11,323 nt of DNA from assembly GCA_016188625.1 (NCBI GenBank), contig JACPHL010000152.1, positions 1 to 11,323 of the forward strand. Reading direction: 5' to 3'. Of this stretch, positions 2,998-10,964 are shown in pieces. The notes beneath the pieces are model-generated. The model saw nothing but the letters and a program-made list of their open reading frames with translations, ran no database searches and had not been told where the DNA came from. The first letter of the stretch is position 1, and each line of letters opens with the position of its first letter. This DNA is from Candidatus Rokuibacteriota bacterium. GTDB taxonomy: Bacteria > Methylomirabilota > Methylomirabilia > Rokubacteriales > JACPHL01. The position numbers and the translations under genes are program-made.

Positions 2998-3864
2998 TCA
3001 TGAGGTCAGAAGATACCCGAACTCGCGGAGAGCGCGCTCGTCCCGCCTCCAGTGCCAGCGGACCCGGACCTGGAGCTCCAGGTAGACCTTGATCCCGAAG
3101 AAGGCCTCGAGCTCCCGCCGCGCCGCCTGCCCGATCCACTTCAGCATCCGCCCCCCCTCGCCGATCACGATCGCCTTCTGAGGTTCCCGCTCGACGAAGA
3201 TGACCGCCCGGATGTAGAGGAGCTCGCCCCCCGGTCGCTCCGTCAGCTCCTCCACCCGGACGGCCGAGGCGTAGGGGACCTCCTCCCGGGTGAGGAGGAA
3301 GAGCTTCTCCCGGATGATCTCGGCGACGAAGAAGGTCTCCGGCTGGTCGGTAGTCGTCCCCTCGGGGTAGTAGGCCGGCCCCGGCGGCAGGGCCTCCAGG
3401 ATCGCCGCCTCCAGCCGGTCCACGTTGGTCCCCGCCGTGGCCGAGATCGGGACGATCTCCCTGAAGGGGTGGCGGACCCGGTAGGCGTCGATCAGCGGCA
3501 GGAGCCGCTCCTTGGGGGAGACCAGGTCCACCTTGTTGAGGGCCAGCTCGGTGGCCTCGCCGACCAGGCAGATGAGATCCACGTCCTCGAGGGCCCGGAG
3601 GGCGGTCCGGATCATGAACTCCCCGAACCTGCCGGGGGGCGCCCCGAGCCCAGGGGTGTCCACGAAGACGACCTGGGCCCCGGGCAGCGTCTTGATCCCC
3701 GTGATCCGGTTCCGGGTCGTCTGCGGGCGCGGGGAGACGATCGCCATCTTCTGGCCGAGCAGGCGGTTCAGGAGGGTCGATTTCCCCACGTTGGGGCGGC
3801 CGACGAGGGAGACGAAGCCCGAGCGGTGCTCAGGCGACGTGGAGGGTCCGGGGCGGTCTGGCAT
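2998..3864 (-). CDS. era: GTPase Era, with an apparent ~20-residue loss in the G domain
   Basis: Era is a Ras-like GTPase with a C-terminal KH domain that binds the 3' end of 16S rRNA during late 30S assembly. The 288-residue product shows G1 GRPNVGKS (22-29), a G2 region in PQTTRNR, G3 DTPG (69-72), G4 NKVD (110-113), G5 SAT (141-143), and a KH loop GEGG (235-238) followed by ERALREFGYLL. The odd point is that only four residues (ELAL) separate GEAT, after strand beta-4, from NKVD, where Era proteins such as E. coli's have about 24. Helix alpha-3 and much of strand beta-5 therefore appear to be missing in frame. The ATG at 3864 is the only in-frame start before G1. It overlaps ybeY by 35 bases and lacks a Shine-Dalgarno, so translation probably depends on ybeY. 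Identity is sure; full GTPase function is in doubt. Confidence 0.94.
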   Translation of the reverse strand: MPDRPGPSTSPEHRSGFVSLVGRPNVGKSTLLNRLLGQKMAIVSPRPQTTRNRITGIKTLPGAQVVFVDTPGLGAPPGRFGEFMIRTALRALEDVDLICLVGEATELALNKVDLVSPKERLLPLIDAYRVRHPFREIVPISATAGTNVDRLEAAILEALPPGPAYYPEGTTTDQPETFFVAEIIREKLFLLTREEVPYASAVRVEELTERPGGELLYIRAVIFVEREPQKAIVIGEGGRMLKWIGQAARRELEAFFGIKVYLELQVRVRWHWRRDERALREFGYLLTS

Positions 3865-8283: not shown

Positions 8284-8287
<4 letters not shown>

Positions 8288-8793
8288 GGCTTGAGGTAGC
8301 GATCCTTGAGGCGGACGTAGTTCCGGGCCGGACGGCGGATCAGCTCCAGCTCCTCGTCGGTGAGCGTCCGGGCCGGCCGGGCCGGGGCGCCCAGCATGAG
8401 GGTCCGCCGCGGGATCCGGGTCCCGGGGGGGACGACGGAGCCGGCGGCCACGATGGACTCCTCCTCCATCACCACCCCGTCCAGGACGATGGCGCCGATG
8501 GCGATCAGGCAGTGGGAGGCGATCCGGGCCCCGTGGAGCCTGACCCCGTGCCCGAGGGTGACGTGGTCGCCGATCTCGATGTCGTAGCGCTCCGCCATGA
8601 CGTGGAGGACCGAGCCGTCCTGGATGTTCGAGCCGCTCCCGATCCGGATCCGGTTGACGTCGCCCCGGAGGACGGCGTGGAACCAGACGCTCGAGTGCTC
8701 CCCGATCTCCACGTCCCCGATGACCTGGGCGCTCTCCTCGACGAAGGCGGTGGGGTGGTTGCGGGGGGACCGGTCGCCGAACGCCCGGATCAT
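8284..8793 (-). CDS. Gamma-class carbonic anhydrase-like hexapeptide-repeat protein
   Basis: This 169-residue protein belongs to the YrdA/PaaY/Cam group of left-handed beta-helix proteins, which are trimers with a metal site between subunits. Hexapeptide repeats run from about residue 15 to 140 (for example AQVIGDVEIGEHSSVW and CLIAIGAIVLDGVVM), followed by a C-terminal helix. The gamma carbonic anhydrase landmarks are present: R43-x-D45 in RGDVN, NIQDGSVLH with H64, and GHGVRLHG with H82 and H87. Those three His residues fit the metal ligands. Many relatives have no proven carbonic anhydrase activity, so bicarbonate chemistry is likely but not certain. The ATG at 8793 has a weak GAAGG (8800-8804) upstream. 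It heads the tight run into hisS with an ATGA overlap, so it is probably co-transcribed with translation genes for which it has no obvious functional tie. Confidence 0.92.
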
Positions 8794-8857
8794 CGGCGGC
8801 CTTCGACGGGCCCGCGCGGACGAGGGCGGGGAGGGCGGGGGCTTGGGACGACCGGAC
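8794..8857. other. C-rich transcript spacer, G-quadruplex motif on plus strand
   Basis: The 64 bases between the FG-GAP protein and the carbonic anhydrase are strongly skewed. The plus strand has five G runs (8824-8826, 8828-8831, 8833-8835, 8837-8841, 8845-8847) with loops of one to three bases, which satisfies a G-quadruplex pattern on the template strand. The minus-strand transcript is correspondingly C-rich: about 24 C to 8 G over the 40 bases next to the upstream stop. That resembles a Rho-utilisation region and could mark the end of the upstream unit. No clear promoter or intrinsic terminator was seen. Confidence 0.45.
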
Positions 8858-9592
8858 TCACGAGCCTCGGGCCAGGAAGATCCGGCTCTCGCCGCCCCCG
8901 CCGCGGGGGTCCGCCCGCTTGGCGACGGCGACGAGGAGGCTCGGGGGCGTGCGCCCGAGCACGGCGACGCCGCTGACTACGCCGTCGAACTGGGGGCCCA
9001 GGGTCTCGAGGGTCAGCTCGTCCTCCTGGCGGCGGAGGATCACCACCTCCCCGGCGGTGAACCCCTGGCCGGCCGCGAGATTCCGGGGGACGAGGACCTC
9101 CTCGACCCCGTCCCCGTCGAGATCCCGGGCGAAGAGGTTCGGCTCCGGGGCCTCGACGCCCGGCCCGCCCCCGCCCACCCGTACCGGGGAGCGCCAGAGC
9201 TCGATCCGGCCGCGGGCGACGACCAGGCGGCGGTCGGCGTCGATGTAGACCAGCTCGCGCCCTCCGCCTTTCGTGAGGCTCGCCAGGACCGCGCCCGTGG
9301 CCCTGAACCCCGCCGGGACCTCCACCGCGCCTTCGGGGGTGAGCCGCCCCTCCTGGTAGCGGTACCGGACGACCCGGCCCGCGGCGAGGCGCCCGGCCTC
9401 GGAGCCCTGGCCCCAGAGGGTCTCCTTCACCCCGTCGCCGTCCTCGTCCACCGCCAGGAGGATCGCGGGGATCCCGTCCACCAGCGGGCGCACGGGCGCC
9501 GGCGGGGCGGCGAGGATGAGCGAGGCCGGCCCCACGCCCGGGAGGGAGCGGTTCACCGCCACCGCGAGCCGGTCGGGGCCCTCGAGGGCCAC
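8858..9592 (-). CDS. FG-GAP/VCBS repeat protein, C-terminal half downstream of in-frame amber
   Basis: This is the distal part of a secreted FG-GAP repeat protein whose first half lies at 9653-10738. The frame is the same as the upstream part. Between the TAG at 9653-9655 and the GTG at 9592 lie 20 open, protein-like codons (read as RPEGSWRPAAGAILGVQF and flanks), so the whole reads as one gene of about 626 codons. The segment has beta-propeller style repeats with calcium-loop motifs DEDGDG (49-54 from the GTG) and DLDGDGVEEVLV (157-168), and ends in SRIFLARGS before TGA. The GTG at 9592 lacks a good ribosome binding site and would begin inside a propeller blade, so a separate functional protein is doubtful. 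Codon use resembles that of its neighbours, which suggests the break is recent, read through or artefactual. Confidence 0.7.
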   Translation of the reverse strand: MALEGPDRLAVAVNRSLPGVGPASLILAAPPAPVRPLVDGIPAILLAVDEDGDGVKETLWGQGSEAGRLAAGRVVRYRYQEGRLTPEGAVEVPAGFRATGAVLASLTKGGGRELVYIDADRRLVVARGRIELWRSPVRVGGGGPGVEAPEPNLFARDLDGDGVEEVLVPRNLAAGQGFTAGEVVILRRQEDELTLETLGPQFDGVVSGVAVLGRTPPSLLVAVAKRADPRGGGGESRIFLARGS

Positions 9593-9652
9593 GAACTGGA
9601 CCCCCAGGATCGCCCCCGCGGCCGGGCGCCAGCTCCCCTCCGGCCGGAGCCC

Positions 9653-9655
9653 CTA
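9653..9655 (-). other. In-frame TAG amber codon interrupting the FG-GAP protein
   Basis: The minus strand reads CCC TAG GGG at this point. Codons before it (SFYRLTP) and after it (GLRPEGSW) continue a plausible blade of the same protein in the same frame. A CAG (Gln) codon one transition away would restore the reading. It is the only TAG in frame with a recognised gene in the window; all true gene ends use TGA. Confidence 0.85.
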
Positions 9656-10738
9656 GGGCGTCAACCGGTAGAACGAGACGCTCTCCCCGTCGGTCAGCAC
9701 GAGCTGGGGCGACGCCCCGGCCGCGCGGGGCTCGGCGGCATCCACGGCCAGGGCGAACTGCCCGAGGCTCCCGATCTCGGCGAGCGGGAGGGCGTCTCCC
9801 CTTCGCCTGTCCCGGGGGCTGGCGAAGAAGCTCCGGAGGATGGCGCTCCGGGCGAGCGGCACCGGCTCGCCCCCGGCCTTGATGGCATCGGGCTCCGGGG
9901 GCGGGGACGGAGGCGCCGGTCGCCGAGGAGCGAGGGCGAGCCGAGCCAGGGTTCCCAGGAGCTCGGTGGCGGTCATGAGCGGACGCCGCTGCGCCAGGGA
10001 GAGGAGCCGGACCTCGAGGGCAGTCTCGGTCGCGGCCGGGCGGAGCGTGGCCACCAGGAGGTAGTCCACCCCGAACGCCCGCCGGAACTCGGCCAGCCGA
10101 TCCCCGGCCCCCAGCACTCCGTCGGCCGACAGGACCTCCCCTGGGAGCCCGGCCTTGAGGCGATCGGCGAAGATCGGGCGGAAGCGCCCGGTCGCCTCCA
10201 GCTCGCTTGCCAGCGCCGCGGCCAACGGATCCTCGCCGCCCCCACCGGCCGCCTCAGGCCTCGTCAGGGTGAGGAGCCCGAGCCGGATCGGCCCGCGGGC
10301 CGTCCGGACCCGATCCCCGGGTCTCGGCATCGCCCCTGGCGGGGGCTCGAGCAGCCTGGCCGTGGCGTCCCCCTCGCGGACCGCCTGGACCGCCACCCGC
10401 CCGAGGGGCTCCTCGACGTGGCCGAGGAGCTGGCCGGTCCGCGGGTGGCGGAGCTCCCGCCCCCGCCTGAACAGGATCAGCTCAGCCTCGACGGGGAGAC
10501 CATCCCGCGCCCCGAGCCCGATCCGGACCGTCCCGCCCTGGACCTCCAGCACCTCCCCTTCGATCTCGGGGAACTGACGGAGCACCGCCTGGACGAGGGG
10601 GTGAAGCGGGGAGGGGCTCGACTCCTGGGACTCCTGGGCCGACGGCGAGGCGGCCATGAGAAGGCCGAGGAGCGCCAGGCCGGCGGAGCGACGGAGCATC
10701 GGGGAGGTCGGGATCGGGGCGGGGGCGACGCTGCTCAA
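9653..10738 (-). CDS. Secreted FlgT/CsgG-like + FG-GAP repeat envelope protein, N-terminal half
   Basis: The product is 361 residues up to an in-frame TAG. A signal peptide is clear: RR at 16-17, hydrophobic GLALLGLLMAA (20-30) and a likely cut after SPSA (34). Residues about 46-150 resemble the C-terminal domain of flagellar assembly protein FlgT, with EIEGEVLEVQGGTVRIGLG, then LRHPRTGQLLG and GRVAVQAV. Residues about 155-265 resemble the CsgG/TolB-N/FlgO-like fold, with LAAALASELEATGRFRPIF and GVDYLLVATLRPA. From about 325 the first propeller-like repeat begins (LVLTDGESVSFYRL), and it continues past the stop into the downstream ORF. The start is uncertain: TTG at 10738 has GAGG four bases upstream, while an ATG at 10699 gives a more typical signal peptide but no ribosome binding site. 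The role is unknown; an exported or periplasmic structural or sensor protein is likely. Domain assignments are by eye. Confidence 0.8.
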   Translation of the reverse strand: MSSVAPAPIPTSPMLRRSAGLALLGLLMAASPSAQESQESSPSPLHPLVQAVLRQFPEIEGEVLEVQGGTVRIGLGARDGLPVEAELILFRRGRELRHPRTGQLLGHVEEPLGRVAVQAVREGDATARLLEPPPGAMPRPGDRVRTARGPIRLGLLTLTRPEAAGGGGEDPLAAALASELEATGRFRPIFADRLKAGLPGEVLSADGVLGAGDRLAEFRRAFGVDYLLVATLRPAATETALEVRLLSLAQRRPLMTATELLGTLARLALAPRRPAPPSPPPEPDAIKAGGEPVPLARSAILRSFFASPRDRRRGDALPLAEIGSLGQFALAVDAAEPRAAGASPQLVLTDGESVSFYRLTP

Positions 10739-10875
10739 CGGGCCTCGATTCCGTCAGGGATCCCGGCGTCGGGGGTCTCCTTCCGAGGGGGAGCGAGGCC
10801 GAGCCCACGCGCCTCGGGGGTGCCGCTCATCGGGGCCGGGGAGCAGACGACGAGGCCGAAGCTCATCCGGATCAT
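10735..10875 (-). CDS. Possible 46-residue leader ORF, near-leaderless and coupled to the envelope gene
   Basis: The ORF reads from ATG 10875 (MIRMSFGLVVCS at the N terminus, IPDGIEAR at the C terminus) to a TGA at 10735-10737 that overlaps the TTG start of the envelope gene as TTGA. Its ATG lies about nine bases downstream of a predicted -10 box, so the mRNA would be nearly leaderless. No family is recognised, and no signal peptide or domain is convincing. It could be a leader peptide that couples translation to the next gene, or a chance open stretch in GC-rich DNA. The evidence is positional only. Confidence 0.35.
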   Translation of the reverse strand: MIRMSFGLVVCSPAPMSGTPEARGLGLAPPRKETPDAGIPDGIEAR

Positions 10876-10883
10876 CGGCCCAC

Positions 10884-10912
10884 ATTCTACCACCCGGCCC
10901 CGGGGGCAGCAA
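10884..10912 (-). promoter_or_regulatory. Predicted extended -10 promoter for the envelope-protein unit
   Basis: On the minus strand, TGGTAGAAT gives an extended -10 (TAGAAT at 10884-10889, five of six consensus bases, with TG one base upstream). TTGCTG at 10907-10912 serves as a -35 after a 17-base spacer. The expected transcript start is near 10877, directly before the ATG of the short ORF. AT-rich sites are rare in this GC-rich window, which makes the match more meaningful. Confidence 0.55.
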
Positions 10913-10935
10913 GGACGGCGCGCGGAGGCGGCGCC

Positions 10936-10964
10936 TTGACACCTCGGGGGGGTCGTGCTATCTA
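10936..10964 (+). promoter_or_regulatory. Near-consensus sigma-70 promoter for the FmdB-type gene
   Basis: A perfect TTGACA (10936-10941), a 17-base spacer and TATCTA (10959-10964) point toward the zinc-ribbon gene. The expected start is near 10971, which leaves a leader of about 40 bases before the GTG at 11011. The -35 boxes of this promoter and of the divergent minus-strand promoter lie only 23 bases apart, so a shared regulator could act on both. Confidence 0.75.

Follow-up and report, generated by a model that had tools for sequence, protein, structure and literature searches.

A Premature TAG Codon in an FG-GAP-Type Gene of a Rokubacteriales Draft Genome That Does Not Reflect Recoding

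A single in-frame TAG codon (9653-9655, minus strand) interrupts a gene for an apparently exported FG-GAP-type protein in the window, the 11,323-nucleotide stretch of DNA that was analyzed. We lean toward a recent nonsense mutation in this single-copy gene, with an error in the draft sequence close behind; recoding is not the explanation. Were the codon a nonsense mutation, RF1 would read it as an ordinary stop and the cell would make a truncated protein of 348 residues, ending inside the first blade of the propeller-like FG-GAP region in the C-terminal part; the downstream 264 codons would constitute a remnant that has yet to decay. We infer both that the organism itself carries TAG here and that the shortened protein is inactive. 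Recent bacterial pseudogenes that arise from one nonsense mutation likewise show a lone in-frame stop, an otherwise intact sequence and intact orthologues.

The interrupted gene and its relatives

The initial annotation described two parts of one frame separated only by TAG, and an open-frame check bears this out, with all 626 codons of the minus-strand frame from 10738 to 8861 open except the one at 9653-9655. Its counts of 361 codons before TAG (from a TTG at 10738), 20 after it and then 244 from a GTG at 9592 are also correct. The start is most likely the ATG at 10699-10697 (minus strand) rather than the TTG, in which case 348 codons precede TAG, TAG itself is codon 349 and 264 codons come after; without the interruption the frame from ATG 10699 to the TGA at 8858 would encode 613 residues. 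The N-terminal part (9653-10699, minus strand) comprises a likely signal peptide, a FlgT_C-like and TolB/CsgG-like region and the beginning of the first FG-GAP blade, and the C-terminal part (8858-9652, minus strand) continues in the same frame as an FG-GAP-like β-rich region with DEDGDG and DLDGDG loops before the terminal TGA. A signal-peptide-like stretch follows ATG 10699; both this stretch and the TolB/CsgG likeness were judged by inspection alone.

In the order Rokubacteriales the orthologue is a single uninterrupted protein of approximately 620-650 residues, relative to which the stop in the window gene is premature. An order-wide search returned 48 matches in 47 other Rokubacteriales genomes (relatives were found in 48 of the 60 genomes sampled, own genome included, with E values up to 1e-30), and among the matches of this search there was no internal stop besides that of the window's own gene. 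The matches cover the greater part of the 626-position query with identities of 30-40%, those named deriving from Candidatus Rokuibacteriota draft genomes. Gene order, with HisS, AspS, PhoH, YbeY, Era and RecO, is shared in five of six relatives' regions, the sixth contig being too short, and a neighboring gamma-carbonic-anhydrase-like gene (8284-8793, minus strand; identity by inspection) is kept in three of the six. On the basis of whole-chain similarity and synteny, and not of the FG-GAP Pfam model, we assign the window gene as the syntenic orthologue of the Rokubacteriales FG-GAP-type protein; it is present in a single copy, and some relatives do not have the gene or have lost it. The FG-GAP label given initially holds in part, as the window protein itself scores 17.6 bits against FG-GAP_3, below the cut-off of 26.9, while the two relatives tested (L063 and L065) pass. 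The match to FlgT_C in the N-terminal part of the relatives is below threshold.

Relatives L002, L005, L063 and L065 resemble the window gene in length, domain order and neighborhood, at ∼30-40% identity, but have a sense codon where the window gene has TAG. A further difference lies in the first calcium-type loop of the window protein (approximately 9570-9592, minus strand), which reads ALEGPDRL where most relatives have DLDGDG.

The TAG site and the sequence beyond it

The 264 codons past TAG have a mean codon log-odds of 0.31 per codon, as compared to 0.25 across all gene models, and a third-position GC of 0.97, while every other frame scores at most 0.10 per codon. This codon signature, in the same frame as the upstream part, establishes that the region is a real coding frame and not the result of chance openness in GC-rich DNA. 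A 780-codon ATG frame on the plus strand (8597-10939) lies antisense across the whole of the FG-GAP gene and passes through the TAG site; it is probably a by-product of high GC content, since antisense frames over the C-terminal part reach no more than 0.10 per codon, as against 0.31 in the sense direction.

Identity to homologues is 0.352 upstream of TAG and 0.363 downstream, and the ratio of C- to N-terminal identity for the window protein (mean 1.03) falls within the range of 0.95-1.17 spanned by intact homologues, so that the relaxed constraint past the stop that would be expected of an old pseudogene, and only of an old one, was not found. The relatives in this comparison are all of the same order, none belonging to the same genus or family. 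Because the downstream part has drifted no faster than the upstream part, the lesion is either recent or not real, and the undecayed sequence would fit a recent nonsense mutation and a draft error equally well.

Across 32 homologues the residue aligned with TAG is Arg in 23, Gln in 7, Glu in 1 and Tyr in 1, encoded by CGC (13), CGG (9), CAG (7, accounting for every Gln), CGA, TAC and GAG (1 each). The site is predicted to be a variable turn between two strands, residues 341-347 and 350-357, in an AlphaFold model that is of poor quality (mean pLDDT of 59, five sequences) and that was used solely for strand placement around TAG. A single transition from CAG to TAG, as proposed initially, is plausible in view of the seven homologues with CAG, but CGN codons are commoner at this position and an ancestral CAG is therefore plausible only; TAG is one change away from CAG or GAG and two from CGG. 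The tetranucleotide CTAG is scarce in this genome, with 72 occurrences versus approximately 625 expected from base composition in sampled contigs L066-L085 and the window, a nine-fold shortage. Its presence within a gene is therefore unusual, which fits a new change.

In the same sampled contigs and window the frequencies of CCAGG and CCTGG are roughly twice those expected. A mutation hotspot at methylated CCAGG, conceivable had the ancestral codon been CAG, is unsupported, as no match to the C5-cytosine methyltransferase model TIGR00675 was obtained in the 84%-complete draft genome; the model finds matches in 10 of 14 control genomes.

Contig quality and alternatives to a nonsense mutation

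The strongest rival to a recent nonsense mutation, which we regard as a serious possibility yet somewhat the less probable of the two, is that the organism has a sense codon at this site and that the draft carries a wrong base, through low coverage or through a minority or mixed-strain base. The draft genome is fragmented (344 contigs, 84% complete, 2% contaminated), and the intact sequence downstream of the stop is as compatible with an error as with a recent lesion. Further, the gene for the GTPase Era in the window (2998-3864, minus strand) is missing 20-21 internal residues in alignments with relatives. The gap, with a junction near 3546-3547, falls between ...LVGEATE and LALNKVDLV and preserves the reading frame; the residues in question are present in all 12 aligned relatives (15 rows, three of which repeat a genome), and the matches of relatives are interrupted there as well. 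As judged from alignments to Era chains of solved structure, two core elements of the GTPase fold would flank the missing piece, and a working Era that does not contain it is for that reason hard to picture, in a protein expected to be essential. The gap thus points to faulty assembly of this contig, or else to a genuine deletion for which an explanation would be required, and, as it is located on the same 11-kb contig only 5 kb from TAG, it raises the chance that TAG is an artifact as well. The contig therefore calls for a sequence check before either era or the FG-GAP gene enters comparative work.

On the other side, all of the other window genes that were compared are full length and free of frameshifts, and in typical genomes real pseudogenes outnumber substitution errors that create a stop. 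The sampled contigs contain 13 cases in which neighbors in the same frame are split by one stop, 11 with TGA and 2 with TAG. The second TAG pair, in L081, was rejected as an interrupted gene, as it consists of ribosomal protein L25 followed by peptidyl-tRNA hydrolase (the latter named by inspection) and is thus a gene boundary. A Pfam scan of five of the 11 TGA pairs identified separate genes on either side of the stop in four, which are thus gene boundaries, and gave no match for the second piece of the fifth. Among the pairs examined, both TAG pairs and five of the 11 TGA pairs, no further gene was clearly interrupted by a single stop, which is a point in favor of an artifact.

Programmed or leaky readthrough of TAG, by which some full-length protein would be produced, is improbable. 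The frame past TAG is intact and conserved, as readthrough would have it, but not one homologue has a stop at the site, a suppressor tRNA was not seen among the 29 tRNAs recovered, and the sequence 3' of TAG shows no unusual structure (folding z-score of +0.74, with 153 of 200 shuffles folding at least as well). A regulated version of this scheme, with low-level readthrough giving two exported forms, one with and one without the propeller-like region, is more doubtful still.

Very unlikely is an arrangement of two adjacent genes, the second beginning at GTG 9592, located 60 bases past TAG, or arising by re-initiation; all full-length homologues are continuous across this point, which contradicts the two-gene option as the ancestral state, and by inspection there is no clear ribosome-binding site.

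TAG as a stop codon in this genome

Reassignment of TAG to an amino acid, the least probable of the readings, is excluded for practical purposes. All ten of the gene ends checked in the window are TGA, as had been noted initially, along with a warning that this bias is only weak evidence for recoding. In order to place stop usage on a broader footing we have considered 255 kb of the same genome, comprising 20 sampled stretches and the window, with genes modeled using a simple codon-usage picker, because of which single calls may be wrong. The 198 models so obtained end in TGA (127), TAG (51), TAA (14) or at a contig end (6), so that TAG terminates 51 of the 192 models with a stop, ∼27%. The absence of TAG from gene ends in the window is thus a small-sample effect rather than a trait of the genome.

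Genes ending in TAG, identified with NCBIfam, include gyrB, atpA, prs, rplY, ychF, folD and mnmA. In gyrB and mnmA the match extends to the final position of the family model, in atpA, prs and ychF it reaches to within a few positions of the end, and for rplY and folD the best family model is matched to near its end; conserved genes with TAG therefore stop at or near the points where their families do. In addition, TAG is the terminal stop in 7 of the 32 orthologues of the interrupted gene itself. The RF1 gene prfA is present, scoring 517.5 bits against a cut-off of 423.25 and without an internal stop; a second, weaker match is presumably RF2. No CUA anticodon was found among the 29 tRNAs recovered, an incomplete set from which such a tRNA could be missing in this draft. 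That possibility and the single in-frame codon are all that speak for reassignment. Of the explanations listed without ranking in the initial annotation, a nonsense mutation and an error or strain variant thus both stand, while reassignment is contradicted. A search of the literature on stop codons in Rokubacteria gave nothing specific.

Genomes in which TAG encodes Gln or pyrrolysine likewise have TAG within coding frames. Unlike these, the present genome has RF1, TAG as a common terminator, no CUA tRNA seen and one affected gene found. The case serves as a control in this regard, in that the absence of TAG on the scale of the window could pass for possible recoding, a reading that does not survive once 255 kb of this genome are considered.
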